A stretch of 64,000 nucleotides of DNA from Bacteroidota bacterium. Lineage in GTDB: Bacteria; Bacteroidota; Bacteroidia; Bacteroidales; UBA10428. Position 1 is the first letter of the stretch; every line of letters begins with the position of its first letter. This document shows, piece after piece, positions 29,316 through 45,533 of this stretch. Location of the stretch: the NCBI GenBank assembly GCA_003252385.1, contig QKEH01000009.1, positions 16,916 through 80,915 on the forward strand, given 5' to 3'. Both the position numbers and the translations under genes were made by a program. Under the pieces are notes generated by a model. It was given only the letters and a program-made list of their open reading frames with translations. It had not been told where the DNA came from and did not search any database.

Positions 29316-30227
29316 TTAAACCACATCCCAATCCAGTATGGGTTGTGGATTTTGTGCAATCCATAGGTTTAATTCGGAAGGTGTCAGATTGGAGTAGACC
29401 AGCAGATACCCCCCTCCGCCTGAGCCACACAATTTCATAGTGTATTGCCCACCGTCCAGTCCTTGTTGCCAGATACCCAGCACCGTATCCGGAATCATGG
29501 AACGGAAGAACTCCAGCTGGAAACGGGAAATCTGGATCATATCGTACTTCAAAGCATTGGTATCGGAAGTAAGCACATGCTGAACCATGCTATCCACATT
29601 TTCCACGTATTTCACATAGTGTTTCTTTCGATCTTTATCAGCAAGCAGCTTGTAAAATTCATCCACCAGGCGCCGTGTTGAAGCATAAATGCGGGTATCA
29701 AATAGATAGAACTGACTCAGCACCGGATTGGTCCGAGAACCCGGTACTCCCTCCACCCGGGCGCCATGCACCCGGAGCAATTGGTTCCGATAGGCACATA
29801 AAGGATCGAGCCCGGAACTATTACCGTGAAAATACGACTCGGCTCCGGCCAAAACTTCTTTTTGATCGCATATGGACAAGGCTGCCAGTTGGGGAAAATA
29901 CGCTCTAAAAACCGAGGCAACCAAGGCTCCGGAACTCCCCAACCCATATCCCTGCGGTATGGTGGAGTCGAAAAACAGCCCATCCTGAATATGGTCCTGA
30001 AGCAAATCCATATCACCCTGAAGCTCTTCGATCCAAGGAAGTCCTTGCAGATAGTTATAAAAACCAGCCAGAGCACGATTGGACTGAATTACAGATGGTG
30101 TAGGTTCTTTGTCGCCCATGAAACCCAGCTCCCCGGAGTACTTTGAAAAAGGAACCACCAACGCCGGCGAACCCTCCAATACAGAGTATTCGCCGCACAA
30201 CAATACCTTGGAACAGACCCTACTCAT
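29316..30227 (-). CDS. GHMP kinase, probable mevalonate kinase
   Basis: KVLLCGEYSVLEGSPALVVP; PQGYGLGSSGALVASV; SGLDPLCAY; CGSGGGGYLL. Confidence 0.8.
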   Translation of the reverse strand: MSRVCSKVLLCGEYSVLEGSPALVVPFSKYSGELGFMGDKEPTPSVIQSNRALAGFYNYLQGLPWIEELQGDMDLLQDHIQDGLFFDSTIPQGYGLGSSGALVASVFRAYFPQLAALSICDQKEVLAGAESYFHGNSSGLDPLCAYRNQLLRVHGARVEGVPGSRTNPVLSQFYLFDTRIYASTRRLVDEFYKLLADKDRKKHYVKYVENVDSMVQHVLTSDTNALKYDMIQISRFQLEFFRSMIPDTVLGIWQQGLDGGQYTMKLCGSGGGGYLLVYSNLTPSELNLWIAQNPQPILDWDVV

Positions 30228-31332
30228 GACCTATCAGTTTTACAGGCCCACTCCCCAGAGTATCGTGAATCACCCGACCCCCAGCACACAGTTCGGCCAG
30301 TTGCCCTTGTATGAGTTCGGTTCTAACCTTGCCGGCTTCCTTTTCAGGGTACAATACATGTACTGCAGCTCCTGCATCAATGGTGAACCCTACCGGAACC
30401 CTTGTTTGATCCCGGTAGCGACGTATACGTTGCAATGCCTCCAAACTCTGAGGCTTAAGCAAGATATATCCAGGAAAGGAGGTTAACATCATGGCATGCA
30501 GACAAAGTGCCTCGTATTCCACCCAATCGATAAATGCAAACCAGTCGTCTTTCGATACTAAATTGAGAAGAATTTGTAGATGGGTGGATGCTTGTCGGAA
30601 GCGTTCCACAGAAAAAAGATTGCCCTCCATCAGCCGATGCCCTTGAGAACTGGAAACGGTTTTTGCATCCTCATCCAGTATTAAAACGGAATCGTTAAGG
30701 GTCTGGAACAGTGGATGAACCGCGAATGGCAACGGTACCGCCCAGGTATCGGAAGAACCCCTAAGGTCCTGCACCTTTCCCCAAATGGTCCACCCACCGT
30801 ATACCGAACGGCAGGCACTTCCCGATCCGAGTCGCGCCAGATAGGATGCTTTCCTGAAAAATGTATCCTGCGTCCATTTTATTCCGGTAAGCTCTTCCTC
30901 CAAACTCACCAAAGCCAGTGCCAACGCTCCATAAGCCGATGCTGAAGAAGCTATTCCCGAAGAATGTGGAAAGGTATTGGACGATTCGATGGTGAGTTCA
31001 ACCCCCTGAATCCACGGAAGGTAGGACTGAAGCATACCTATATAATGGGTGATTCTTTCCAGAAACTCCCCCTTCCTGTCTCCTTCCAGAGAGAAATGGA
31101 TTTTCGGTTGTTTTCTCTTACCATCATAGTGGTATGCCACCAATGTTCGTGTTACCGATTCTTTCAGAGTGAAGCTCAATGAGGGATTCATGGGTAGCTG
31201 CTGACCGTGTTTACCCCAGTATTTCACCAGGGCAATATTCGATGGGCACTCCCAACCCGTTTTTCCCGACCTTTCGGCGAAAGGAAGCTTGGAATCGGCT
31301 CCATTTTGTAAAGAATCCGAAGAATGCAACAT
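30220..31332 (-). CDS. mvaD: Diphosphomevalonate decarboxylase
   Basis: SNIALVKYWGK, SSGIASSASAYGALALAL, GSGSACRSVYGGW, FTIDAGAAVHVLYP. Confidence 0.93.
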   Translation of the reverse strand: MLHSSDSLQNGADSKLPFAERSGKTGWECPSNIALVKYWGKHGQQLPMNPSLSFTLKESVTRTLVAYHYDGKRKQPKIHFSLEGDRKGEFLERITHYIGMLQSYLPWIQGVELTIESSNTFPHSSGIASSASAYGALALALVSLEEELTGIKWTQDTFFRKASYLARLGSGSACRSVYGGWTIWGKVQDLRGSSDTWAVPLPFAVHPLFQTLNDSVLILDEDAKTVSSSQGHRLMEGNLFSVERFRQASTHLQILLNLVSKDDWFAFIDWVEYEALCLHAMMLTSFPGYILLKPQSLEALQRIRRYRDQTRVPVGFTIDAGAAVHVLYPEKEAGKVRTELIQGQLAELCAGGRVIHDTLGSGPVKLIGHE

Positions 31333-31338
31333 GGTATT

Positions 31339-32277
31339 TCAGTTTATAGACACAATATCCTGATAGGCAAACCATTGGTTCAATCCCTTCCGACGCAAAT
31401 AATCTTCTACCTGAGCCCGATTGCCCCGATGGGTGCATACTACAAAATCGCCTCCCCAGGCTCCTAACGATTTCACCACATAGGGATAGTCGTGAAAAAG
31501 CCCTTCGGCTACCGGCACGGCACGAATATGTCGGGCAATTAAGCTTTCGTGCTCTCGTAGGAGTTTTTCAAAATCTTCCAACTGACTCACCTGACATAAG
31601 GCATTGGTTATTTGCGAGATTCGGCTGGTTAGCATTGGATCCTCTTCAATCTGGTGGCTATAAGCAGCCACTTCGGAAGCAGAGGTCTGTTTGTTTCCCA
31701 AATAGACAAACAGTAACTGATTGTGAAATTCGGGATTAAACGAAGTTTCCAGGCAGGTGGGCTGCTTGTTACTTAAACCATACACAAAGGGTCGATCTCG
31801 CACCGCAGCAGCAATATCGTAACCGGATCCACCGGTAATTTCAGCATTCAAGCTATAGGGGTCTGCTCCAACCCAGGCAGCTAAATTACGGAGTAAGGTA
31901 GAGCTTGATCCCCAACCCCAGTTTCTGTCGAACTCCAGGTTGGTTCTGATGCGCCAAGAGAATGAACCTGAAAAGAAATCGGGCCTATACCGGTTCAACG
32001 CTTGCAGGATACGACTCAATGGTTTTGCCAGGAGAACTGCACTGGTACTAGCGCAGGTAAAATCGGGCAGATGGTAGGTGGCGGTAAACCAAATTCCATT
32101 GCGCTCCCGGGCTTCCCATTCGAGTTTTGGGTGGCAGGTGGTGCGAATTTCTTCCACCGTCATCGACTGTCCGTACTGCAAAGGAAGAACAAGCGCCAGG
32201 GCTCCCCGAAGAACGGCATATTCGCCGCTGAGCAATAATTTACCCTTCGCGTAAAAATGGTGTATCCTGTTTATCAT
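31339..32277 (-). CDS. GYDIA family GHMP kinase, candidate phosphomevalonate kinase
   Basis: KGKLLLSGEYAVLRGALALVLP, NWGWGSSSTLLRNLAAW, GGSGYDIAAA (namesake GYDIA). Confidence 0.8.
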   Translation of the reverse strand: MINRIHHFYAKGKLLLSGEYAVLRGALALVLPLQYGQSMTVEEIRTTCHPKLEWEARERNGIWFTATYHLPDFTCASTSAVLLAKPLSRILQALNRYRPDFFSGSFSWRIRTNLEFDRNWGWGSSSTLLRNLAAWVGADPYSLNAEITGGSGYDIAAAVRDRPFVYGLSNKQPTCLETSFNPEFHNQLLFVYLGNKQTSASEVAAYSHQIEEDPMLTSRISQITNALCQVSQLEDFEKLLREHESLIARHIRAVPVAEGLFHDYPYVVKSLGAWGGDFVVCTHRGNRAQVEDYLRRKGLNQWFAYQDIVSIN

Positions 32278-33586
32278 GACGTAACTGCTGCAGGTATTCT
32301 TTAACTGCTACAGAAGAAACTGTTTTCTTGCGGAAATGTTCTTTTATTTGAGCTCGCTCGCGTATATTGGCACCCAACTGAGTGGCTATGTTGGAAAGAT
32401 GAAGTTGCATGTGCCCGGACTGAATGCCCGAGGTCACCAAGGCTTTAACCGCGCTGTAGTTATTTGCCAGGCCCACTGCGGCAGCAATCTGCATGAGTTC
32501 AACCGCGCTGGGGTTTCCTAACAGTTTCCCGGCGTGCCGGGCCATGGGATGCACTGTGGTGGCTCCTCCTACTGTTCCAATAGCCAAAGGCAGCTCCAAT
32601 GAAAAAGTAAATATCCCTTGGTGCAGGGTGGCAACCGACAGGCTCCGATACGATCCGTCAGCCGATGCCCAAGCATGCGCATTGGCTTCCACCGCCCGAA
32701 AATCGTTACCTGTGGCCAGCACCACAGCATCCACTCCATTCATGATACCCTTATTGTGCGTTACTGCCCGAAACGGATCGCCTTGTGCAATGGCAACAGC
32801 TTTGGTAAAGCGAGAAAGAAAGGTCTCACTGTCCATATTCGGTGCCATATCCCGGAGTTCATTCACAGGAGCCGCCACCTTACAAAGCACCCGGCAATCC
32901 GGTGTATAATTGGAGAGGATGCACATGAGCACCTCCACACGCCTCCAGGATTCGGGCCAGGTTCCATTCCCTGCCAGGGATTGCGTCCATACCCCTGCCA
33001 GACTTTCCAGTACCGTATTGATAAAATTGGCGCCCATGGAATCGGCCGTATCAAATTGAACCTGAAGCTGGTAGTAATTGGGAAGAATATGAGGCAGGCG
33101 AACCACCTGCAGCCCCTTTATACCCCCTCCCCGTTTGTCCATGGAGGTGGTAAGTGGTTTGAGCTGAACCAGCATCTCAGATTGAACCTGCCCGAAAAAT
33201 TCCTGAAGCTTTTCTTCATTGCCCTCCCAGAGAAAATGCACCTGCCCGGTTTTTGTGGTGCCCTGTACCCGGCAGGTAAAACCTCCGTGCCTATCCCAGA
33301 ATTTTGCGGCAGCGGCGGCGGCGGCCACCACCGAACTTTCTTCCGTTACCATGGGAACATGATACCGCATGCCATTGATCCGGAAATTGGGTGCCACGCT
33401 GAAAGGTAAATGATAATTACCCACCATATTCTCCGACAACTCCTCATAAACCTGCTGATAGTTTTCGTTTGTCGCTCTGTGGGAATCCAAATCATCGACC
33501 CAATTCCCGCTGTTGGGCATTATTGAAGCCAGCAGTTGAATCCGCTCCAGACGATCCCGGCTTGAAAAACCTTCAATTCGTTCCAT
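32240..33586 (-). CDS. mvaA: Hydroxymethylglutaryl-CoA reductase, class II type
   Basis: ENMVGNYHLPFSVAPNFRINGMRYHVPMVTEESSVVAAAAAAAKFW; DSMGANFINTVLE; THNKGIMNGVDAVVLATGNDFRAVEA; GTVGGATTVHPMA. Confidence 0.94.
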   Translation of the reverse strand: MERIEGFSSRDRLERIQLLASIMPNSGNWVDDLDSHRATNENYQQVYEELSENMVGNYHLPFSVAPNFRINGMRYHVPMVTEESSVVAAAAAAAKFWDRHGGFTCRVQGTTKTGQVHFLWEGNEEKLQEFFGQVQSEMLVQLKPLTTSMDKRGGGIKGLQVVRLPHILPNYYQLQVQFDTADSMGANFINTVLESLAGVWTQSLAGNGTWPESWRRVEVLMCILSNYTPDCRVLCKVAAPVNELRDMAPNMDSETFLSRFTKAVAIAQGDPFRAVTHNKGIMNGVDAVVLATGNDFRAVEANAHAWASADGSYRSLSVATLHQGIFTFSLELPLAIGTVGGATTVHPMARHAGKLLGNPSAVELMQIAAAVGLANNYSAVKALVTSGIQSGHMQLHLSNIATQLGANIRERAQIKEHFRKKTVSSVAVKEYLQQLRHDKQDTPFLREG

Positions 33587-33599
33587 CCTCTAAGCTGTT

Positions 33600-34598
33600 T
33601 TAACCGGGTTTTATCCGTAAAAAAGCCTGTGCCATACGCAGCGCCTTAACCTGACTTTCCACATAGGCATGCAATGCCTCGTAACTTTGACGGGCATATC
33701 GTAAAAAATTGGATGCCTGTCCGTAGACTGCAGGCAGTGGCGACTTTTCGAGCAGGTAATACCCGTCCAGAAAATTGCGTATGCCGCCCGATAGAATAAG
33801 CTGCTTACACTCCATAACTCCCCCTTCCTGCCGGATCTCCAGTATGGCATCCAGCATGCTTTCGGTATCTTCGCCAATATTTTCAAAAGCCCGTAGCGCA
33901 TCTTTTGAGGCGTCATCTTGCCGCAATACTTCCAACCGGGAAAAATTGGTGCCACCATACCCCGAAGTTTCTATAGCTTCCAGGGGCAAAGCCAGCAAGG
34001 CTCTGAGACTATCTTTACCCATTCCCTGCCCCACCTCTTTAACAATTACCTTATAGGGACACTGTTCCAGAAAGCGGTTTAGGGTAGTAAGTGGAGGCTC
34101 GGTCAAACGATCGCCTTCGGCCTGCACCCATTCCTGCAAGGGATTTACATGAACAATCAGCCCATCGGTGCGCAGACGTTTAACCACATCGTGCAGCCGG
34201 TTGATTTTTCCTCCGGCAAGAAGTTGTTCCAGCTGGCTGATACCAATATTGGCATAAAAAGCGGCATCATCGCCCAGTGTATCGCGCAGGTCGAAATCCT
34301 TAAAATGTCCCTCTTCCTCGAGTAAAATTCTGCATGAACCCAAACCCATTCCCATTCCAAAATCGCGGCATATCCGGGCCAGGTTATGATTGATTTTTCC
34401 CGCCATCTGAGTGCCTCCGGTCATGCTCGAAACCCACAGGGGTACTTTAAACGGTTTCCCCAAAAAAGTGAATTCATGAAACAGTTCCAACGGATGGGCA
34501 CTGAGCATGGGTTCGTATCTAAACCTCGGGTCGGCAAGTTCTTTGTTGGTTTGCGACTGAAAAGCCAACTCAATATGACTCTGTTTTCGATCGTGCAT
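33600..34598 (-). CDS. fni: Isopentenyl-diphosphate delta-isomerase type 2
   Basis: RKQSHIELAF, PLWVSSMTGGT, GMGMGLGSCR, FMN-type TIM barrel with ETSGYGGTNFSRLE, LILSGGIRNFLDGYYLL. Confidence 0.88.
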   Translation of the reverse strand: MHDRKQSHIELAFQSQTNKELADPRFRYEPMLSAHPLELFHEFTFLGKPFKVPLWVSSMTGGTQMAGKINHNLARICRDFGMGMGLGSCRILLEEEGHFKDFDLRDTLGDDAAFYANIGISQLEQLLAGGKINRLHDVVKRLRTDGLIVHVNPLQEWVQAEGDRLTEPPLTTLNRFLEQCPYKVIVKEVGQGMGKDSLRALLALPLEAIETSGYGGTNFSRLEVLRQDDASKDALRAFENIGEDTESMLDAILEIRQEGGVMECKQLILSGGIRNFLDGYYLLEKSPLPAVYGQASNFLRYARQSYEALHAYVESQVKALRMAQAFLRIKPG

Positions 34599-34603
34599 AC
34601 GTG

Positions 34604-35761
34604 CTATTTCTTTAGGCCGATGTGCCGGGAAATCACCACCCGAAGAATTTCGGAGGTACCTTCACCGATTTGCAGGATTCTCTGGTCGCGATAAAACCGT
34701 TCAATTTCAGAGTTTTTAAACAAACCATAGGCTCCATGCACCTGAAGCGCCTCATCGGCCACTTCCCGGGCAATCTCGGAACAATACAATTTGGCCATAG
34801 CTGCTTCCTTACTAAAAGGCAAGCCGGTATCCTTACGCCAACAGGTGGTATACAGAAAGTTCCGTGCCAGTTCAATTTTGGTGGCCATGTCGGCTAATTT
34901 AAACGATATTGCCTGAAAATGTGCTATGGGCCGGCCAAATTGCTTTCTTTCCTGTGCATATGCCATGGCCAGTTCGTAAGCACCCTGAGCCAACCCCAGT
35001 CCCATGGCTGCAATCGACAGGCGTCCCGAATCCAGTGTTTCCAGCATAATTCGTGCTCCTTCGCCGGGTTTACCCAGCATATTTTTACGTGGTACCACAC
35101 AGTTACTAAAAAACAACTTTCCGGTATCGGCAGCCCGCCACATCATTTTATTATCAATTCGTTCGCAACGATATCCGGGTGTGTCGCGCGGTACCATAAT
35201 CACCGATAACTCTTTCTTGCCTTCCTTTTGGCCCGTTACCACCTGTATGGTAGCTCCTGCCGAAATATCGGATGCGGAGTTGGTAATAAACATCTTGGAT
35301 CCGTTTATATGCCACAAACCATGTTCCAGCCGGGCTTCCGATTGTGTGCCTAAGGCATCGGAACCAGCATGTTGTTCCGTAAGCCCAAAGGCCCAAAGCT
35401 TTTCTCCGGTACACAGTTGGGGTAACCACTGCCGCTTCAGCTCGGGATGCGCAAAATGGTAAATTGGTGCCAGTCCCAGTGAATTATGCGATGCCACGGT
35501 GGCTGCCTGCGAACCATCGATACGGGCTAATTCCTCCACCGCTATGATATAGGACAGGGTATCGCGGTTTTGTCCGCCGTATTCCAAAGGAAGAGTGATG
35601 CCGAATAAACCCAGTTCCCCCATTCGTTGCGTCAACTGGTACGAGAACGTTCCGGATTCGTCCAGCAGGGCAGCTTGTGGTTTTATTTCCTGTTCGGCAA
35701 ATAAACGAACCTGATTGCGCAAAGCCTGATGTTCGGCTGTAAGTGTCGGGTATGAAATCAT
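34604..35761 (-). CDS. Acyl-CoA dehydrogenase (context: isovaleryl-CoA dehydrogenase step); listed ORF extends to 35857 but Met33 is the likely start
   Basis: AIFGLTEQHAGSDALG-type FAD motif (WAFGLTEQHAGSDA), QFGRPIAHFQAISFKLADM, RDQRILQIGEGTSEILR. Confidence 0.88.
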   Translation of the reverse strand: MISYPTLTAEHQALRNQVRLFAEQEIKPQAALLDESGTFSYQLTQRMGELGLFGITLPLEYGGQNRDTLSYIIAVEELARIDGSQAATVASHNSLGLAPIYHFAHPELKRQWLPQLCTGEKLWAFGLTEQHAGSDALGTQSEARLEHGLWHINGSKMFITNSASDISAGATIQVVTGQKEGKKELSVIMVPRDTPGYRCERIDNKMMWRAADTGKLFFSNCVVPRKNMLGKPGEGARIMLETLDSGRLSIAAMGLGLAQGAYELAMAYAQERKQFGRPIAHFQAISFKLADMATKIELARNFLYTTCWRKDTGLPFSKEAAMAKLYCSEIAREVADEALQVHGAYGLFKNSEIERFYRDQRILQIGEGTSEILRVVISRHIGLKK

Positions 35762-35924
35762 ATATTTTCCAATTGGTAACTGATCAACAAGGGCAAGCCG
35801 GTTTTGTTTAGCCCTGGCGACTATGTTCCGGTGTCTTGCAGTACGATGCCGTACCACGAGGTGTTATGGACTCACCGGCAGGCTTCATGCCAATACCTCA
35901 ATGGATAAAAAGTTCGGTTTATGC

Positions 35925-37925
35925 TCAGCCCTGTTCATCGGCTACCTGTGCTAAACGCAACAAAGGTTGTCCTTCGCGTACCAAACCACCTTCTACATAA
36001 AGAACATCCTGAACCACGGCATTAAAGGGAATGCGTACCTCGTTTTCCATTTTCATGGATTCAATCACCAGCATACGATCCCCCTGATGCACCTTCTGGC
36101 CGGTGGTAACGTAAACTTTCACCAGTTTGCCGCTTATCGGAGCCTGAAGGATGTCCGAAAAAATGCTTTCGGTCTGAGTTTGATTTAATTGGGATCGCTT
36201 TGTCAGGGGCCTACGGGTGGTAAATTGCATCCTGTTAATGCCCTGTCCAATTTCAATACCATCCTCCTCGCCCCACGAATAATCCAATTGCCTCCAAATC
36301 CCTTGCATACAAACCATAAGTTTGCCACGGCCATGCATGGTTACCTCCATGTTATAGATCTTGTTGGCATGGTAAACGGATAACGTACGACCATCGACAT
36401 GGTCAATCTCCACCGACTGTTCTTCCCCATTGAGCCAAAAGGTGAGGTTTCGCTGCAGTTTCCAAGCACCCAACTGACGTATTGCCGGGGGAAGTGACAG
36501 CGTTTGGCGGTTCCAATGCAAATAAAGTGCAACCAGGCCCAAATGCAGTTTCTCTTCGAGAGTTGGAGTTAACGGAACCGTCAACTCTTTTAAATTCTGG
36601 TCGATAAACGAAGTGTTTATCCGATTGTCCAGAAAAGCCCGTGAATGAAGCACATTCCAAAGAAACACCTGATTATGTTTCAGACCCTGTATGGATATTT
36701 TTTCCAATGCTTCCCTCATCCGCATGAGGGTTTCCTCCCGATTAGAGCCATGCACAATTACTTTGGCAAGCAACGGATCAAAGGCTGCCCCTACCTCTAT
36801 TCCCGGCTGCAAATCGTACTCGACACGTACCGAGTGCAGCGGAAAGGACAGTTGGGTAATGGTTGCAACCGATGGACGGAAATCGCGTTGTGGGTCTTCG
36901 GCATACAGTCGTACTTCCATGGCATGCCCCTTTAGGGATGCCCTTTTCAAGTCGCTGCTCAGGGGGTGTCCCGCAGCCAGACGAATTTGCTCCTGCACCA
37001 GGTCGATACCGGTAACCATTTCGGTAACAGGGTGTTCTACCTGAATACGAGTATTCATCTCGAGAAAAAAATGGTTGCCATTGGAATCCACTAAAAACTC
37101 AACCGTACCCACATTGCGATAGCCTATTGCCCGAACCAGTTGCAGGGCATCGTGGTACAATTTTTCGCGAATAGCTGAAGTCAGTGATACTGCAGGTGCT
37201 TCTTCCAGTACTTTTTGGTACCGGCGCTGCAGACTGCATTCACGCTCAAACAAATGGGCTGCATGGCCATACTGGTCGGCCAGCACTTGTATTTCGATGT
37301 GGCGGCAACCATGCATCTGCTTTTCCACAAACACCTGATTATTGCCAAAGTAAGCAAGCGATTCGCGAGCGGTATGCTCCACCGCTTCCAAAAGTTCGCT
37401 TCGGTTACCGGCTACCCGCATGGCCTTTCCTCCACCACCCAGGGCAGGTTTAACCAAACAGGGAAACAGGGTGTCGTCCATGGAATCCATTATCTGTTCT
37501 GGCGAGCCATGCACCCCTGGAATAATGGGTATCCCAATTCGAAAGGCTACTTCCCGGGCAGCTGTTTTATCGCCCATCAGGCGTATATTTTCATCCGACG
37601 GGCCAATGAAGAGCAGGCCCCGCTCAACACAACGCCGGGCAAAGTCGGAATTTTCCGCTAAAAACCCATAGCCCGGATGAACTGCATCGCAACCGGAAGC
37701 ACAGGCAATATCCAGCAACTTTTCACCATTCAAAAAGGTCGAACTCAGCGGACCCGTACCCAGCGAAACCGCCTCATCAGCCTCATGAACATAGAGCAGG
37801 TCTTTTTCCGATTCGTTGTAAACCACTACCGAAGAAATTTCCATACGCTTCAGGGTTCGCAGAATGCGCCGTGCCATTTCCGACCGGTTTGCAATGAGTA
37901 CCTTTCGAATGGTTTTTAGCTCCAT
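35925..37925 (-). CDS. Methylcrotonyl-CoA carboxylase biotin-carboxylase/biotin-carrier (alpha) subunit
   Basis: Biotin carboxylase (KVLIANRSEMARRILRT, EVRLYAEDP) and C-terminal biotinyl motif VIESMKMENEV. Confidence 0.88.
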   Translation of the reverse strand: MELKTIRKVLIANRSEMARRILRTLKRMEISSVVVYNESEKDLLYVHEADEAVSLGTGPLSSTFLNGEKLLDIACASGCDAVHPGYGFLAENSDFARRCVERGLLFIGPSDENIRLMGDKTAAREVAFRIGIPIIPGVHGSPEQIMDSMDDTLFPCLVKPALGGGGKAMRVAGNRSELLEAVEHTARESLAYFGNNQVFVEKQMHGCRHIEIQVLADQYGHAAHLFERECSLQRRYQKVLEEAPAVSLTSAIREKLYHDALQLVRAIGYRNVGTVEFLVDSNGNHFFLEMNTRIQVEHPVTEMVTGIDLVQEQIRLAAGHPLSSDLKRASLKGHAMEVRLYAEDPQRDFRPSVATITQLSFPLHSVRVEYDLQPGIEVGAAFDPLLAKVIVHGSNREETLMRMREALEKISIQGLKHNQVFLWNVLHSRAFLDNRINTSFIDQNLKELTVPLTPTLEEKLHLGLVALYLHWNRQTLSLPPAIRQLGAWKLQRNLTFWLNGEEQSVEIDHVDGRTLSVYHANKIYNMEVTMHGRGKLMVCMQGIWRQLDYSWGEEDGIEIGQGINRMQFTTRRPLTKRSQLNQTQTESIFSDILQAPISGKLVKVYVTTGQKVHQGDRMLVIESMKMENEVRIPFNAVVQDVLYVEGGLVREGQPLLRLAQVADEQG

Positions 37926-38710
37926 TGTGGTTTCCTCCTTTCCAGGAAGGCCTGCAGGCCTTCCTGAGCTTCGTCCGATATGCGGCTGGCTGCAATAACT
38001 CGGGCAGTCAGTTCTTTCAAATCGGGGTTCACGTCCGGTGCGTTAAGTTGCCCCATCAGTTGTTTAATTCCTTTTTGTGCATGGGCCCCACCTTGCACAA
38101 TCGCATCTTTTAAACGATCGAATGCCGCATCCATATTTTGCGGTTGAATCCTTTCATCGACCAAACCCAGTGCAAGTGCTTCCTCCGCAGAAAATGAATT
38201 CCCCAGTAACATCAGCTGTTTGGCCTTGCCTGCACCAATACGATGTATAACATAGGGTGCAATGGTAGCCGGAATAAGCCCCAGTTTGACCTCGCCAAAT
38301 GCAAAGTGAGCAAGGTTGGAGGCCAACACAAAATCACAAACCGCAATCAATCCAATAGCACCGCCATAACAAGCTCCTTGTATGGTAGCCACCACTACTT
38401 TGGAACACTTATTCACGGCCTCAAACAAATCGGCCAGCAACCGGCATTCGGCCAGATTCTCTTCTTCAACCAAGTCTTTTGACGCTAACATCCAGTGAAT
38501 ATCTGCCCCTGCCGAAAAGGTATCGCCTGCCGATTGAATCCGGACTACACGCACATGATCCATCGAATTTATAGTATTGAAAGCCTTTAACAGCTCATGA
38601 ATCATTGCGGAGTTAAGTGCATTTCTTTTCTCGGGCCGGTTTAAGATAATTAGGGCCACTTGCTGACGAACGACCACCTGAATGCAGGGGTCTGATTTTG
38701 TAGCTTCCAT
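37916..38710 (-). CDS. Enoyl-CoA hydratase, methylglutaconyl-CoA hydratase-like
   Basis: NRPEKRNALNSAMI, FSAGADIHWM, GACYGGAIGLIAVCDFVLA, FGEVKLGLIPATIAPYVIHRIG. Confidence 0.85.
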   Translation of the reverse strand: MEATKSDPCIQVVVRQQVALIILNRPEKRNALNSAMIHELLKAFNTINSMDHVRVVRIQSAGDTFSAGADIHWMLASKDLVEEENLAECRLLADLFEAVNKCSKVVVATIQGACYGGAIGLIAVCDFVLASNLAHFAFGEVKLGLIPATIAPYVIHRIGAGKAKQLMLLGNSFSAEEALALGLVDERIQPQNMDAAFDRLKDAIVQGGAHAQKGIKQLMGQLNAPDVNPDLKELTARVIAASRISDEAQEGLQAFLERRKPQWS

Positions 38711-40354
38711 TTACATGCGATAAATTCCGGCACGAGGTTCCGGAATGGTTTTATTCAAAGAGGTTTCGATGGCCATGGCCAGCACCTTTCGGGTATCGGC
38801 CGGATCGATGATCCCATCATCCCAGAGTTCCGATGAGGCAAAATACGCCGAACTTTCCAACTCGTATTTCTTAAGCACAGGTTCCTTCAGGTTGTTCATT
38901 TCCTGATTAGTGAGTTCTTTACCCTCCTTTTGCAACTGCTCCTGCTTAACCACTGCCAGGACTGTGGCTGCTTGCTCTCCCCCCATAACCGCCACCCTTG
39001 CATTGGGGTACATGAACATAAAATTCGGGTCGAAGGCCCTTCCTGACATGGCATAATTGCCAGCGCCATACGAGCCCCCATACACCAGGGTAAACCGGGG
39101 CACTACGGCATTGGCAACAGCATGCACCATTTTGGCACCATCGCGTGCAATACCGCCGTGTTCGTATTTCTTGCCCACCATAAATCCACTTACATTTTGC
39201 AGGAACAGCAGGGGTATTTTCCGGAAATTACATAGCTCGATAAAGTGGGTAGCCTTCAACGCCGACTCGGAATACAGAATGCCGTTATTGGCAATAATTC
39301 CAACCGGATATCCCATAATATGGGCAAATCCGGTGAGCAGTGTTTGGGCATATTTTTTTTTGAATTCGTGCCACTCGCTACGATCCACCAGTCGGGCAAT
39401 CACCTCGTAAGCATCCACCGCTTCGCGCGGCGACTGCCCTAAAATTCCATAGAGTTCTTCAATGGGGTACAGCGGATCGGCAGGTACCTCGGTATTTAAA
39501 ACCTGTTTTTCCGGCTTAGGGAGCGTTGCCACAATGGATCGCCCCAATTGCAAGGCATGTTCCTCGTCGCGTGCCAGGTGATCGGCTACCCCCGATACCG
39601 AGGTGTGCACCTCTCCCCCTCCCAGTTCTTCTGCGGATATCTTTTCGCCAGTGGCTGCCTGAACCAGTGGCGGACCACCTAAAAATATTGTTCCCTGCTC
39701 CCGGATAATGACTGTTTCATCACTCATGGCCGGAATGTAGGCTCCACCTGCCGTGCAGGATCCCATCACAATCGCTATCTGAGGAATGCCCTGTGCCGAC
39801 ATACGCGCCATATTAAAAAATATACGGCCAAAATCATCCCGGTCGGCAAATACCTTCGACTGTTCCCGCAAGAAAATACCTCCTGAATCAACCAGATAAA
39901 TGCAGGGTAAATTATTCTGCATCGCAATTTCCTGTGCCCGCAGGTGCTTCTTAATGGTTTCGGCTACATAGGTACCTCCCTTAACTAAAGAATCGTTCGC
40001 TATCACCACAACTTCCCTTCCATGGATGTAACCCACACCGGTAACGATTCCAGCGTTGGGAAATTGCCCATGGTATTTCCCATAGGCCGCAAAAACCGAC
40101 CATTCAAGAAATGGTGTGCCCACATCCAACAATCGGTCAATACGTTCCCGAACCGGTAAGCGCCCCCGGGAGAGATGACGTTCCAGCAAATGCGATTCCC
40201 GAACACTTTGCTCGCTAAGTTTTCTTCGAAAATCGGCTATCAGTTCCCGGTACGATGCCGTACGTTGCAGAAATTCGGGATCCTTAACCAGAAGCCGTGT
40301 AACCAGTGATTCCAAATTGTATAATTCCTTAATACGTTTTAGCCACTTTAACAC
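38711..40354 (-). CDS. Methylcrotonyl-CoA carboxylase carboxyltransferase (beta) subunit
   Basis: GSCTAGGAYIPAMSDETVIIREQGTIFLGGPPLVQAATGEKISAEELGGGEVHTSVSGVADH. Confidence 0.9.
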   Translation of the reverse strand: MLKWLKRIKELYNLESLVTRLLVKDPEFLQRTASYRELIADFRRKLSEQSVRESHLLERHLSRGRLPVRERIDRLLDVGTPFLEWSVFAAYGKYHGQFPNAGIVTGVGYIHGREVVVIANDSLVKGGTYVAETIKKHLRAQEIAMQNNLPCIYLVDSGGIFLREQSKVFADRDDFGRIFFNMARMSAQGIPQIAIVMGSCTAGGAYIPAMSDETVIIREQGTIFLGGPPLVQAATGEKISAEELGGGEVHTSVSGVADHLARDEEHALQLGRSIVATLPKPEKQVLNTEVPADPLYPIEELYGILGQSPREAVDAYEVIARLVDRSEWHEFKKKYAQTLLTGFAHIMGYPVGIIANNGILYSESALKATHFIELCNFRKIPLLFLQNVSGFMVGKKYEHGGIARDGAKMVHAVANAVVPRFTLVYGGSYGAGNYAMSGRAFDPNFMFMYPNARVAVMGGEQAATVLAVVKQEQLQKEGKELTNQEMNNLKEPVLKKYELESSAYFASSELWDDGIIDPADTRKVLAMAIETSLNKTIPEPRAGIYRM

Positions 40355-40416
40355 CGTACATTTACAGATTGTTTACTGGTTACCGATAAGTACAACCCTG
40401 CCATTCCGTCCGCTGA

Positions 40417-40447
40417 TAAACATAACGTGACCTATATCTAAAGCAAA
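40417..40447 (-). promoter_or_regulatory. Predicted promoter of the leucine/mevalonate operon
   Basis: Minus strand TTTG-N19-TATGTTTA, close to Bacteroidetes TTTG / TAnnTTTG (7/8 at -7), 63 nt upstream of the GTG start at 40354. Confidence 0.5.
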
Positions 40448-40539
40448 TTTTGTCACACTGACAGCGACATTCATTCATTTATTACTAATTTTAATGAAAC
40501 TTCACTGCCCATTTACCGTTTCACAGAAAAATTCTTACT

Positions 40540-40902
40540 ATGAACTCAGCTGTCGCCCGCAAACGCAACCAACGCAGATACAATGTTCCGGTTATCGGAC
40601 ATTTTGCCAACCGGAGCATCCGTTTTAATTCCATTATCGAAGCCGAAGACCATACCGGAATTTCCTACACGCTGATTTTTGAAGCATGCGTCGGAAAAAT
40701 TTACAAAGCCCGAAATGTATATTGGGAATTTGCCAATGGCACCCACTTTCTGAAATACAAGGCCCATTATATCAAACAACAAGCTGCACTGGCCGAGTCC
40801 GGAGGTCACGGACATGGCGGACACGGGCACGGAGGACATGGGCATTCTGATAAACAGGCTGCACTGGAACCACACCAACACGATTCGCACAAGAAACATT
40901 AA
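40540..40902 (+). CDS. Hypothetical protein with His/Gly-rich C-terminal tail
   Basis: C-terminus GGHGHGGHGHGGHGHSDKQAALEPHQHDSHKKH; N-terminal ~90 aa unrecognised. Confidence 0.7.
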   Translation: MNSAVARKRNQRRYNVPVIGHFANRSIRFNSIIEAEDHTGISYTLIFEACVGKIYKARNVYWEFANGTHFLKYKAHYIKQQAALAESGGHGHGGHGHGGHGHSDKQAALEPHQHDSHKKH

Positions 40903-42278: not shown

Positions 42279-45200
42279 ATGACCTTTCAAATGTATTGCC
42301 TACCAGCTATTTACACAGCCGGAATTTCCCTGATTTCGGGTATTTCCCTTGTTCTCTCCGGCAGTATCCTTCCCATTCTTCTTTACTTCGGTTTCAGGTT
42401 CTTCTTCCGTAAAAACGCCAATCCGGTTAAAGCTGCCGCATCCAGCATATTCGACGAAAACGACCAATTAAATACCCTATTCAATAACTTGCCCAATGGG
42501 GTATATATTAAAGATAATGCCTCACGTTATATTTTGTGTAACGAGCGCTTTTCTGCTTCCCTAAAAACCGATCGCCCCGATAAATTATATGGCAAAACGG
42601 ATTTGGATCTTTACCCTGGAAACGACGGTGCCAAATATATGGAAGAAGATCAGGAAATCATTACCGGGCAGAAAGAGATCATTGACCGGGTGCAGGAATC
42701 CATTAAACACGGAAAGAAATACTTCTCGCATACCGTTAAAATACCCATCCGTAATAAGCAAGGCTCCATCATTGGTCTGATGGGTACCTGTTCGGATATT
42801 ACCGCCCAAAAAACAGCCACCCTGCTACTGGAAGAACAAAATGTAGCGCTGGAAAAAGAGCGAGGCCTGTTCAGGGCGCTAATGGATAACATGCCCGACA
42901 CCATCTATATTAAAGACAGCGAAGGTCGTTTTCTGGATGGCAATCCGGCTCTCATTGATGTTACCAAGGCAGGAAACCGGAAGAATTTATTGGGCAAAAC
43001 CGATTTCGATTTCTTCCCCAAAGAAGTGGCTGAGATCTATTTTAACGACGACCAAACCTGTTTGCAAACCGGTCAAGCTGTGTATAACAACGAACAGGTT
43101 AGCTTTGATGCCAAAGGTAATATTCGCATTAAATCTACCATCAAGGTTCCTTTCAGGGATGCGGAAGGCAACATTCTGGGGTTGGTGGGAATAGGCCGCG
43201 ATATCACCAAACAAAAAGAAATAGAAGACAAACTCCTGGAACAGGCACAAAGCCTGCAAGAGACCAATGTATTGTTGGAAGAACGGCAGGAAGAAATCAA
43301 TCAGCAATCGGACGAACTGAGTGCCCAGAACCGGATCCTGGAGGAAGATAAAAGGCTGTTGCGCACACTGATTGACAGCTTACCTGATCTTATTTACATT
43401 AAGGACAGAAATTCCCGTTTCATTACTGTCAATAAGAAAATGATGTCGATTTTTAAAACCGACAACCTGGATCGTATCATTGGGAAAACGGATAGCGATT
43501 TTTACCCGAGTGAATATGTTAAAGGAATGATGGAAGACGACCTGAATGTTCTGAAAACGGGAAAGATTATAATGGATAAAGAGGAACCCGGTATCGATGA
43601 GGAAGGTAATTTCATTCAACTGCTCACCACCAAGGTTCCCCTGCGCGACCCTGAAGGTGAGATTGTTGGAATTATTGGCATTGCCCGCGATATTACGGTG
43701 CTCAAGGAGGCCGAATTGGCTCTTAAGGAACAAGCCGAGAGCATGAAAGAAATTAATGTACTCCTGGAAGAAAGGCAGGAAGAAATTCAACAACAATCCA
43801 CTGAATTACGAAGCCAGAATATCATTCTCGAAAACGAACGTAACCTGTTACGCGCCCTAATTGACACCCTCCCCGACTTTATTTACATTAAGGATACCGA
43901 AAGCCGGTTTATCACCGCTAATAAGAAACTCATCGAATTGTTTAAGGTGCCTTCACCGGAATTTCTGGAAGGTAAAATCGATTTCGACTTCTTCCCCAAG
44001 GACATTGCCCAATTGTACTACGATGATGAGCAGCAGATCTTTAAAACCAATCAGCCGATCATCAGCAAGGAAGAAGTGGGAATGGATGTACAAGGTAACG
44101 AACTGGTAGTATCCACCACCAAGGTGCCTTTTTACGACGCTAATGGCCATATTGCCGGCTTGGTAGGTATTGGGCGCGATGTGACCAAAATGCGCCAGTA
44201 TTCCACGCGTTTGGAACAACAGGCGGTAGAGCTTCAAAAAAACAACGCGCTGCTAACCGAAAAACAGGAAGAAATTCAAAAACAAAGTGAATACCTCAAC
44301 GAGCACAACCAGATTCTGGATCGGGAAAGGAAACTGTTACGCACGCTCATCGACAATATGCCCGATTACATTTATGTTAAAGATAGCGAGAGCCGTTTCC
44401 AACTGCTGAATAAGAAGCTGCTTGAATTGATTGGATTCACCAGTTACAATGATGTGATCGGAAAAACAGATTTCGATTTCGAACAGTTTAAAGGAGTCGC
44501 CCAGTTGTATTTCGACGATGAACAGCGGATTATTAAAAGCCGCAAGGCCATCATCAATAAGGAAGAAATAGGTTTTGACGAGAACAAACGTCAACGGGTG
44601 ATTTCAACCACCAAGGTACCCTATTTCGATGAGAGCAACCATGTGATTGGGATTGTAGGCATAGGACGGGATATTACCAAGCAAAAAAATGCCGAAAAAC
44701 AACTTCGTGAGCAGGCTCAAAACCTTCAGGAAGTGAATATAATTCTGGAAGAACGCCAGGAAAAAATCCAGCATCAGTCGGAAGAAATATCAAAACAATC
44801 TAAAATCCTCCAACGAGCCAATCACGAACTGGAACAACTCAACGCAACCAAGAACAAGTTCTTTTCCATCATTGCACACGATTTAAAAAATCCGTTCCAG
44901 GCCATATTCGGCTTCTCGGAGTTGCTTCTCCGAAATTTCAGCGACTTTGAGGATGCCCAGAAAATGGAACTTCTGGGGATGATTAAAACCTCCTCGGAAA
45001 GTGCCTTCGACTTACTGGAAAACCTACTCCAATGGGCTCGTACACAAACCGACCGGATTAAATACAATCCCATTAAACTGGATTTATCCGAACTGATACA
45101 ACAAAACATTGAGGTGAGCCGCGGTAGTGCCGAGAACAAACATATTACACTGGTTGCTGAGATTCGATGCAATCAGGCCGCTTATGCCGACAAAAACATG

Positions 45201-45533
45201 GTCAACCTGATCATTCGGAACCTGATCAGCAATGCAATAAAATTTACAGACAACCAGGGGGTTATTACCATTCAGTGTGCCGATGCGGGGAATACTATGC
45301 TGGCGATATCCATAGCCGATACAGGTATAGGCATATCGGATGATAACATTGCCAAGCTCTTCCGCATTGATGAATACTTTTCCACATCAGGTACTGCCGG
45401 AGAAGGAGGCACCGGCCTGGGACTTATTATTTGCAAAGAATTTGTAGAAAAAAACAAAGGAGCCATCTCCATTAACAGCGAACCCGGTGTAGGCACCACG
45501 TTTACATTCACCCTTCCAAAATTCCGAGATTAA
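42279..45533 (+). CDS. Histidine kinase with N-terminal TM and five tandem PAS domains
   Basis: Five repeats of the type LIDxLPDxIYIKDxxSRF...DITK with LLEERQEEIQQQS linkers; FFSIIAHDLKNPFQAIFGFSELL; HATPase. Confidence 0.92.
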   Translation: MTFQMYCLPAIYTAGISLISGISLVLSGSILPILLYFGFRFFFRKNANPVKAAASSIFDENDQLNTLFNNLPNGVYIKDNASRYILCNERFSASLKTDRPDKLYGKTDLDLYPGNDGAKYMEEDQEIITGQKEIIDRVQESIKHGKKYFSHTVKIPIRNKQGSIIGLMGTCSDITAQKTATLLLEEQNVALEKERGLFRALMDNMPDTIYIKDSEGRFLDGNPALIDVTKAGNRKNLLGKTDFDFFPKEVAEIYFNDDQTCLQTGQAVYNNEQVSFDAKGNIRIKSTIKVPFRDAEGNILGLVGIGRDITKQKEIEDKLLEQAQSLQETNVLLEERQEEINQQSDELSAQNRILEEDKRLLRTLIDSLPDLIYIKDRNSRFITVNKKMMSIFKTDNLDRIIGKTDSDFYPSEYVKGMMEDDLNVLKTGKIIMDKEEPGIDEEGNFIQLLTTKVPLRDPEGEIVGIIGIARDITVLKEAELALKEQAESMKEINVLLEERQEEIQQQSTELRSQNIILENERNLLRALIDTLPDFIYIKDTESRFITANKKLIELFKVPSPEFLEGKIDFDFFPKDIAQLYYDDEQQIFKTNQPIISKEEVGMDVQGNELVVSTTKVPFYDANGHIAGLVGIGRDVTKMRQYSTRLEQQAVELQKNNALLTEKQEEIQKQSEYLNEHNQILDRERKLLRTLIDNMPDYIYVKDSESRFQLLNKKLLELIGFTSYNDVIGKTDFDFEQFKGVAQLYFDDEQRIIKSRKAIINKEEIGFDENKRQRVISTTKVPYFDESNHVIGIVGIGRDITKQKNAEKQLREQAQNLQEVNIILEERQEKIQHQSEEISKQSKILQRANHELEQLNATKNKFFSIIAHDLKNPFQAIFGFSELLLRNFSDFEDAQKMELLGMIKTSSESAFDLLENLLQWARTQTDRIKYNPIKLDLSELIQQNIEVSRGSAENKHITLVAEIRCNQAAYADKNMVNLIIRNLISNAIKFTDNQGVITIQCADAGNTMLAISIADTGIGISDDNIAKLFRIDEYFSTSGTAGEGGTGLGLIICKEFVEKNKGAISINSEPGVGTTFTFTLPKFRD

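Follow-up and report, generated by a model that had tools for sequence, protein, structure and literature searches.

A Bacteroidales operon joining leucine degradation to the mevalonate pathway suggests an isoprenoid route independent of HMG-CoA synthase

A nine-gene operon within a 64,000-nucleotide stretch of a Bacteroidales genome (the whole stretch analyzed, here called the window) most probably encodes a mevalonate pathway that is independent of HMG-CoA synthase and is fed by leucine or isovalerate. The observed gene content, gene order, and conservation, together with the pattern in which genes are missing, support the leucine-to-isoprenoid interpretation of the original prediction, in which enzyme specificities, co-transcription, and flux are inferred. 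In the proposed sequence, an acyl-CoA dehydrogenase (ACAD) would oxidize isovaleryl-CoA to 3-methylcrotonyl-CoA, 3-methylcrotonyl-CoA carboxylase (MCC) would carboxylate it, and methylglutaconyl-CoA hydratase would hydrate the product to (S)-HMG-CoA. HMG-CoA reductase (HMGR) would then reduce (S)-HMG-CoA to mevalonate, which would be phosphorylated twice, by a mevalonate kinase (MK) and a GYDIA kinase, and decarboxylated by diphosphomevalonate decarboxylase (MVD) to IPP, with isomerization to DMAPP by a type 2 isomerase (IDI2). Such a route would run parallel to the MEP pathway in the window's genome and would apparently be the sole isoprenoid route in several relatives.

The nine packed minus-strand genes of the original prediction are all present in the window sequence with open frames, in the order foreseen, and the operon is intact. 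In the order of transcription, followed by two noncoding regions, the features are:

38711..40354, minus strand, MCC-beta (3-methylcrotonyl-CoA carboxylase carboxyltransferase subunit), 547 aa, GTG start as listed
37916..38710, minus strand, 3-methylglutaconyl-CoA hydratase, LiuC/AUH-type crotonase, 264 aa
35925..37925, minus strand, MCC-alpha, biotin carboxylase and biotin carrier, 666 aa, biotin site ESMKMENE
34604..35761, minus strand, ACAD, 385 aa, start shifted from the GTG at 35857
33600..34598, minus strand, type 2 isopentenyl-diphosphate isomerase (IDI2), 332 aa
32240..33586, minus strand, class II HMGR, 448 aa, catalytic residues intact
31339..32277, minus strand, GYDIA family GHMP kinase, 312 aa, likely phosphomevalonate kinase
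30220..31332, minus strand, MVD, 370 aa
29316..30227, minus strand, mevalonate kinase-like GHMP kinase (MK-like), 303 aa
35762..35924, minus strand, MCC-alpha/ACAD gap of 163 nt, the operon's sole sizeable gap
40355..40539, no strand assigned, divergent intergenic region, putative site of the operon promoter

The intergenic gaps are, in the same order, 0, -10, 163, 5, 13, -38, 6, and -8 nt. The largest, anticipated at about 160 nt, lies within the leucine half and away from the leucine/mevalonate junction; its length rests on the ACAD start at 35761, which was chosen because homologues are 380 to 393 aa long and not 417 aa. At the junction itself, ACAD and IDI2 are separated by only 5 nt. The nine genes presumably form one co-transcribed unit. 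A scan of the divergent intergenic region for sigma-70-type promoters gave no match above chance, and terminator matches were no more frequent than the chance level.

In the leucine half, MCC-alpha, MCC-beta, and methylglutaconyl-CoA hydratase of the liu pathway are all present. MCC-beta aligns over its full length with Pseudomonas aeruginosa MCC-beta from the PDB at 655.9 bits, compared with 443 for geranyl-CoA carboxylase and 268 for propionyl-CoA carboxylase (PCC), and the alignment is gap-free across the active-site stretch, with every Phe of that stretch kept. Assignment as PCC or geranyl-CoA carboxylase was rejected, since both the scores and the active-site stretch favor MCC. Phe191 is a reported position in this stretch (PMC4673880), with its exact counterpart left unpinned here owing to chain numbering. 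The hydratase is a crotonase that has gamma-carboxygeranoyl-CoA hydratase (liu/atu type) as its second-best NCBIfam model and 3i47 as its best PDB match. The catalytic base of the ACAD is of the Glu376 type (IGEGTSE) and not of the Glu254 type found in classical isovaleryl-CoA dehydrogenase, and its role is therefore assigned from context: it probably serves this order as isovaleryl-CoA dehydrogenase, and its ortholog (57-68% identity) is also the fourth gene in lyase-containing leucine clusters.

The mevalonate half shares HMGR, MVD, and IDI2 with the canonical mevalonate pathway, and its two GHMP kinases are putative counterparts of mevalonate kinase and phosphomevalonate kinase. The canonical pathway, however, includes HMG-CoA synthase, whereas the operon is without it and HMG-CoA would enter from leucine. 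The HMGR residues E82/E83, K279, D295, and H392 are conserved in 15 of 15 sequences. IDI2 matches only IDI-2 structures in the PDB (1vcf, 1.1e-32), with a TIGR02151 score of 199.9 bits that falls under the cut-off of 281. MVD scores 120 bits for its Pfam domain and 148.5 bits for TIGR01240 (cut-off, 171), and its best PDB match is a diphosphomevalonate decarboxylase (6n0x, 3.2e-37). Similarly, the MK-like protein scores 78.7 bits for TIGR00549 (cut-off, 163) and finds mevalonate kinase 2x7i as its best PDB match (1.1e-10). The GYDIA kinase exceeds the cut-off of NF040656 (313.8 bits); a literature search on GYDIA returned no relevant paper, and its place as the third GHMP-type protein in a mevalonate set points to a likely phosphomevalonate kinase.

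The lack of HMG-CoA synthase and HMG-CoA lyase that had been noted for the locus extends to the whole of the window's genome, in which profile searches detected neither a synthase (PF01154) nor a lyase (PF00682 and NF004283; best NF004283 E value, 4.8e-14). The four HMGL-like proteins of the genome comprise two of LeuA/CimA size, one NifV-like homocitrate synthase, and one distant aldolase. The same PF01154 search finds HMG-CoA synthase (HMGS) in other Bacteroidia and in control genomes, including that of the haloarchaeon Haloferax.

When the locus is placed among 247 genomes of the same order, HMGR is found in 74, and PF01154 detects HMGS in none of these 74. MCC-beta accompanies the operon's type of reductase in 61 of 66 genomes, versus 40 of 181 others (Fisher 1e-24, in a test that ignores phylogeny). 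The fusion of leucine and mevalonate neighborhoods, for which a wider survey had been proposed, recurs in 20 of the 247 genomes, and the full operon is present in the cultured Tangfeifania diversioriginum DSM 27063. As the 20 genomes span 14 families and their proteins are only ~30-65% identical, the fused arrangement is not due to chance. The ACAD-IDI2 junction is at most 26 nt in 14 of 17 measured fused loci. HMG-CoA lyase is found in 0 of 20 fused genomes, including the single-contig genome G214, versus 31 of 41 unfused ones, a contrast for which the HMGR tree, where about five layout changes suffice, provides two to three independent comparisons, too few for significance. An assembly gap was rejected as the cause of the missing synthase and lyase on the grounds that the same absence is seen in all 20 fused genomes, the single-contig one among them.

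The unfused clusters show what the mevalonate genes have replaced. Their order is MCCb-MGCH-MCCa-ACAD-HMGCL-CoA-transferase A/B-HMGCL. The leucine half of the operon thus keeps the gene order of the bacterial liu cluster in lyase-containing relatives (MCCb, hydratase, MCCa, ACAD), but that cluster ends (in locus L069) in HMG-CoA lyase and acetoacetate CoA-transferase. The fused layout is a module swap: after the same four leucine genes, IDI2 and the mevalonate genes stand in place of the lyase and CoA-transferase genes.

The two halves could instead be co-transcribed neighbors without direct carbon transfer, if an unrecognized synthase, archaeal-type or unrelated, supplied HMG-CoA and an unrecognized lyase removed the HMG-CoA derived from leucine. 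With PF01154, whose detection limit is ~20 bits, the archaeal-type HMGS-like proteins encoded by HMGR-negative genomes of the order reach only 25.6-33.3 bits, and a more diverged synthase could therefore be missed. This explanation is nevertheless unlikely, as it requires two unknown enzymes to have been missed in the same 20 genomes, a single-contig one included, on either side of a shared metabolite. The surroundings of the examined HMGR loci contain neither type of HMGS, and HMGL-like matches in fused genomes have E values above 1e-17, compared with 1e-24 to 1e-60 for true lyases. An alternative HMGS adjoining HMGR in unfused loci was also sought by tblastn with both HMGS types and gave no match there; beside HMGR, those loci carry genes for a chaperonin, an adenine deaminase-like protein, and a phenylalanyl-tRNA synthetase-like protein, among other unrelated ones.

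A degradative HMGR, which would oxidize mevalonate to HMG-CoA in the manner of Pseudomonas mevalonii and have its downstream steps in common with the leucine genes, is very unlikely. The best NCBIfam model for the reductase is indeed "HMG-CoA reductase, degradative" (TIGR00532), although the score is barely over the cut-off, and class II HMGRs serve biosynthesis too. The known degradative pathway, however, ends in HMG-CoA lyase, which P. mevalonii-type operons pair with HMGR and which is missing from the window's genome, and the co-located MK, GYDIA, MVD, and IDI2 genes point to IPP/DMAPP synthesis. Reverse flow of the myxobacterial kind, in which HMG-CoA is dehydrated and decarboxylated to isovaleryl-CoA for iso-fatty acids, is scarcely credible: the hydratase can work in both directions and iso-branched fatty acids are products of Bacteroidota, but this direction requires HMG-CoA synthase, which the myxobacterial aib route uses and which was not found in the genome, together with an AibA/AibB decarboxylase, whereas the locus has ATP-using MCC in its place, with no AibAB-type gene among the nine, and the mevalonate kinases would be pointless.

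The extent to which cells may depend on leucine-derived HMG-CoA differs among genomes. The MEP markers whose search had been suggested (dxr, ispG, and ispH) are all present in the window's genome, and the operon is therefore a second isoprenoid route there, not a sole or obligatory one. Four genomes (G163, G201, G101, and G046), each more than 90% complete, are without DXR, IspG, IspH, and HMGS while keeping HMGR and MCC, so that, judged by recognizable genes, leucine-derived HMG-CoA looks like their only isoprenoid source. MEP loss is not general among HMGR-bearing genomes, with dxr missing in 6 of 66 versus 10 of 181 (p 0.38). It is an even call whether some of the Bacteroidales must draw the carbon of all their isoprenoids from leucine or isovalerate, with synthase-free mevalonate as the only route to IPP/DMAPP in the lineages G101/G201, G046/G156, and G163, which are without DXR, IspG, and IspH.

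Isoprenoid precursors are conventionally taught to come from either the MEP pathway or a mevalonate pathway that starts from acetyl-CoA. If the obligatory-leucine reading is true, it would add a third complete natural supply of isoprenoid precursors, tying cell envelope lipid synthesis to one amino acid. An operon starting from leucine would explain HMG-CoA reductase without HMG-CoA synthase across a large bacterial order, and would change how "incomplete" mevalonate pathways in genomes are read. It predicts leucine label in menaquinone and dependence on leucine or mevalonate in MEP-less relatives, and it could be engineered to make terpenoids from leucine or isovalerate.

Precedent for such flux is broader than the original prediction allowed: leucine-to-sterol flux in trypanosomatids is known, as it had stated, and no dedicated bacterial leucine-mevalonate operon, synthase-free and lyase-free, was found described in the literature searched, but haloarchaea and myxobacteria are known cases as well. 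In trypanosomatids (Leishmania and Trypanosoma brucei), the intact leucine skeleton passes to mevalonate via HMG-CoA (PMC5993337 and its references 20-22 and 37), as proposed for the operon. These organisms differ in being eukaryotic and without an operon, in having an HMG-CoA synthase gene, in also feeding acetate into sterols, and in encoding a putative lyase. In myxobacteria, a sesquiterpene is labeled by dimethylacrylate-d6 and not by acetate (PMC7321100), and intermediates of leucine degradation therefore enter the mevalonate pathway there, as they would through the operon; the alternative aib route runs in the opposite direction, from HMG-CoA to isovaleryl-CoA (PMC9548883), and no fused MCC-HMGR operon was noted in these two papers. 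Halobacterium salinarum is reported to carry leucine into isoprenoid lipid via isovaleryl-CoA dehydrogenase (Yamauchi 2010, as cited in PMC9201399), a route that differs in being archaeal; HMGS is present in Haloferax, the haloarchaeon used as a control. A missing HmgS has also been reported for Legionella (PMC13001223).

The nine genes predicted to join leucine degradation to the mevalonate pathway lie where the original prediction placed them, and the gene listing, profiles and solved-structure matches agree with the identities it gave:

29316-40354, minus strand, nine-gene operon

By profile and structure matches, transcription runs from the beta subunit of 3-methylcrotonyl-CoA carboxylase (MCC) through a methylglutaconyl-CoA hydratase-type crotonase, MCC-alpha (which carries the biotin carrier) and an acyl-CoA dehydrogenase (ACAD) to type 2 IDI (IDI2), and then to class II HMGR, a GYDIA kinase, MVD and a mevalonate-kinase-like protein (MK). 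Scores for MVD, MK and IDI2 fall short of the curated NCBIfam cut-offs, but the best structural match of each is to the named family; the catalytic residues of HMGR are kept. The intergenic gaps are 0, -10, 163, 5, 13, -38, 6 and -8 nt in transcription order; the largest, previously put at about 160 nt, falls within the leucine half, and the leucine/mevalonate junction (ACAD to IDI2) spans 5 nt. Divergent from the operon, at 40540-40902 (+), is a small, possibly metal-binding protein with a His/Gly-rich tail (GGHGHGGHGHGGHGH), and at 42279-45533 (+) is a histidine kinase-like protein of 1084 aa containing a tandem array of several PAS-type repeats that closely resemble one another.

From sequence, a route can be proposed in which ACAD would convert isovaleryl-CoA to 3-methylcrotonyl-CoA, MCC would convert this, with ATP and bicarbonate, to 3-methylglutaconyl-CoA, and the hydratase would yield (S)-HMG-CoA. 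HMGR would then form mevalonate, MK and GYDIA mevalonate diphosphate, MVD IPP, and IDI2 DMAPP from IPP. Stereochemically, such a route agrees with what is established for the hydratase and HMGR. To start from leucine, the cell would need a transaminase together with a keto-acid dehydrogenase or ferredoxin oxidoreductase; environmental isovalerate could be an alternative entry.

The original prediction proposed searching the whole genome (3.93 Mb, 182 contigs, 97.6% complete; window on contig C124) for HMG-CoA synthase (mvaS), HMG-CoA lyase and the MEP genes. A PF01154 profile search found no synthase, and no lyase is present among the HMGL-like proteins, so that the MCC branch of the same operon is the sole recognised source of HMG-CoA for HMGR, and HMGR the sole recognised outlet for MCC-derived HMG-CoA. 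DXR, IspG and IspH are all present, and the cell thus has MEP genes in addition to the operon. As to the HMGL-like proteins rejected as lyases, two are 500-aa proteins of LeuA/CimA size, a third is a NifV-like homocitrate synthase adjoining nitrogen-fixation-like genes, and the remaining one is a distant aldolase. The NifV-like gene (locus L002, contig C142) sits beside 2Fe-2S ferredoxin-, NifX-like- and molybdate-binding-like genes; nitrogen fixation genes are probably part of this genome.

The fusion of leucine with mevalonate genes, for which a wider survey had been suggested, recurs in 20 of 247 Bacteroidales genomes, spanning 14 families. HMGR occurs in 74 of the 247, in 66 cases as the window's class II type, and PF01154 has no match in any of the 74, although archaeal-type relatives in the order clear this profile's detection limit by only some 5-13 bits; its three weak matches (25.6-33.3 bits) are all in HMGR-negative genomes. 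In a control search of 198 genomes from the class, this profile returned eight clear synthases (72-82 bits). Two archaeal-type HMG-CoA synthase-like proteins, each about 355 aa long and sharing 80% identity, occur at L016 (genome G012) and L017 (G047), in HMGR-negative genomes with an MCC-beta homologue.

MCC-beta, counted at at least 55% identity, is present in 61/66 class II HMGR genomes versus 40/181 others (Fisher 1e-24, phylogeny-blind). It lies at most 12 kb from HMGR in 18 genomes, and G149 and G014, where MCC-alpha and ACAD directly adjoin mevalonate genes, complete the 20. The ACAD-IDI2 gap is at most 26 nt in 14 of the 17 measurable loci of the order, one of the 14 being an apparent 97-nt overlap, probably owing to a miscalled start. 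Further copies of the IDI2-HMGR-GYDIA-MVD-MK core are found at L086, L087, L113 and L156, on contigs titled Bacteriovoracaceae/Halobacteriovoraceae (predatory bacteria), which suggests between-phyla transfer of the mevalonate module or mis-binned contigs.

Where the four leucine genes form a cluster of their own (L069, and similarly L070), they keep this order, and downstream of them come HMG-CoA lyase, two acetoacetate CoA-transferase subunits and another lyase. The mevalonate core of fused genomes occupies the position held by these lyase/CoA-transferase genes in unfused ones. Among genomes with both HMGR and MCC, an NF004283-group lyase (best E <1e-20) is found in 0/20 fused versus 31/41 unfused genomes (Fisher 5e-9), a phylogeny-blind p-value that overstates independence, as the HMGR tree holds only four or five independent pairs, two or three in the expected direction (lyase loss with fusion) and none opposite. 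Fused G214, a single 4.8-Mb contig, has neither synthase nor lyase. About five changes on this tree explain the fused label; unfused genomes fall mainly in one supported clade and fused ones on several deep branches, a pattern that an ancient fusion with a few losses could have produced.

The ACAD of the window and its orthologues, in fused and lyase-containing clusters alike, have a Glu376-type active site (GEGTSE) and Gly or Ser-Gly at the position of Glu254 in classical isovaleryl-CoA dehydrogenase. Because ordinary leucine clusters of the order employ this ACAD as well, it most likely acts as isovaleryl-CoA dehydrogenase in these bacteria.

Direct leucine-to-mevalonate flux of the kind proposed here is documented in trypanosomatids (PMC5993337), as the original prediction noted. 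It is likewise documented in Halobacterium salinarum (Yamauchi 2010, as cited in PMC9201399) and in myxobacteria, where a sesquiterpene was labelled by dimethylacrylate-d6 and not by acetate (PMC7321100). Our literature search, with subscription journals mostly outside its scope, found no paper on such a bacterial operon, in keeping with the earlier statement that no standard description was known. In a 2026 review of how isoprenoid pathways vary among bacteria, the words leucine and Bacteroid- are absent from the main text, and the missing HmgS of Legionella is flagged as unsolved (PMC13001223). What appears new is a conserved dedicated operon with neither synthase nor lyase, recurring over 14 families, and the apparent exclusivity of the route in some lineages.

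Such lineages may include five relatives with HMGR and MCC and with no match to DXR, IspG, IspH or HMG-CoA synthase (PF01154): the congeneric G101 and G201 (each 99% complete, in about 20 contigs), G046 (94%) with G156 (76%) from its genus, and G163 (91%). In these, leucine-derived HMG-CoA would be the sole recognisable way to IPP. G163 has the complete nine-gene set on two contigs and no HMG-CoA lyase; G046 and G156 keep the lyase. IDI2 was not found in genomes G101 (L046) and G201 (L047), where DMAPP would need IDI-1 or another isomerase, and neither MVD nor MK could be located in G101. Fused genomes G032 and G146 are without IspH; in their genus (fused loci L027, L030 and L032) it is missing from these two of three genomes (the third being G241), with DXR and IspG kept, possibly as MEP decay in progress. 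In G163, a 605-aa AtuA-like (acyclic terpene utilisation) protein lies between MCC-alpha and ACAD of the leucine cluster (L073, 5332-7149).
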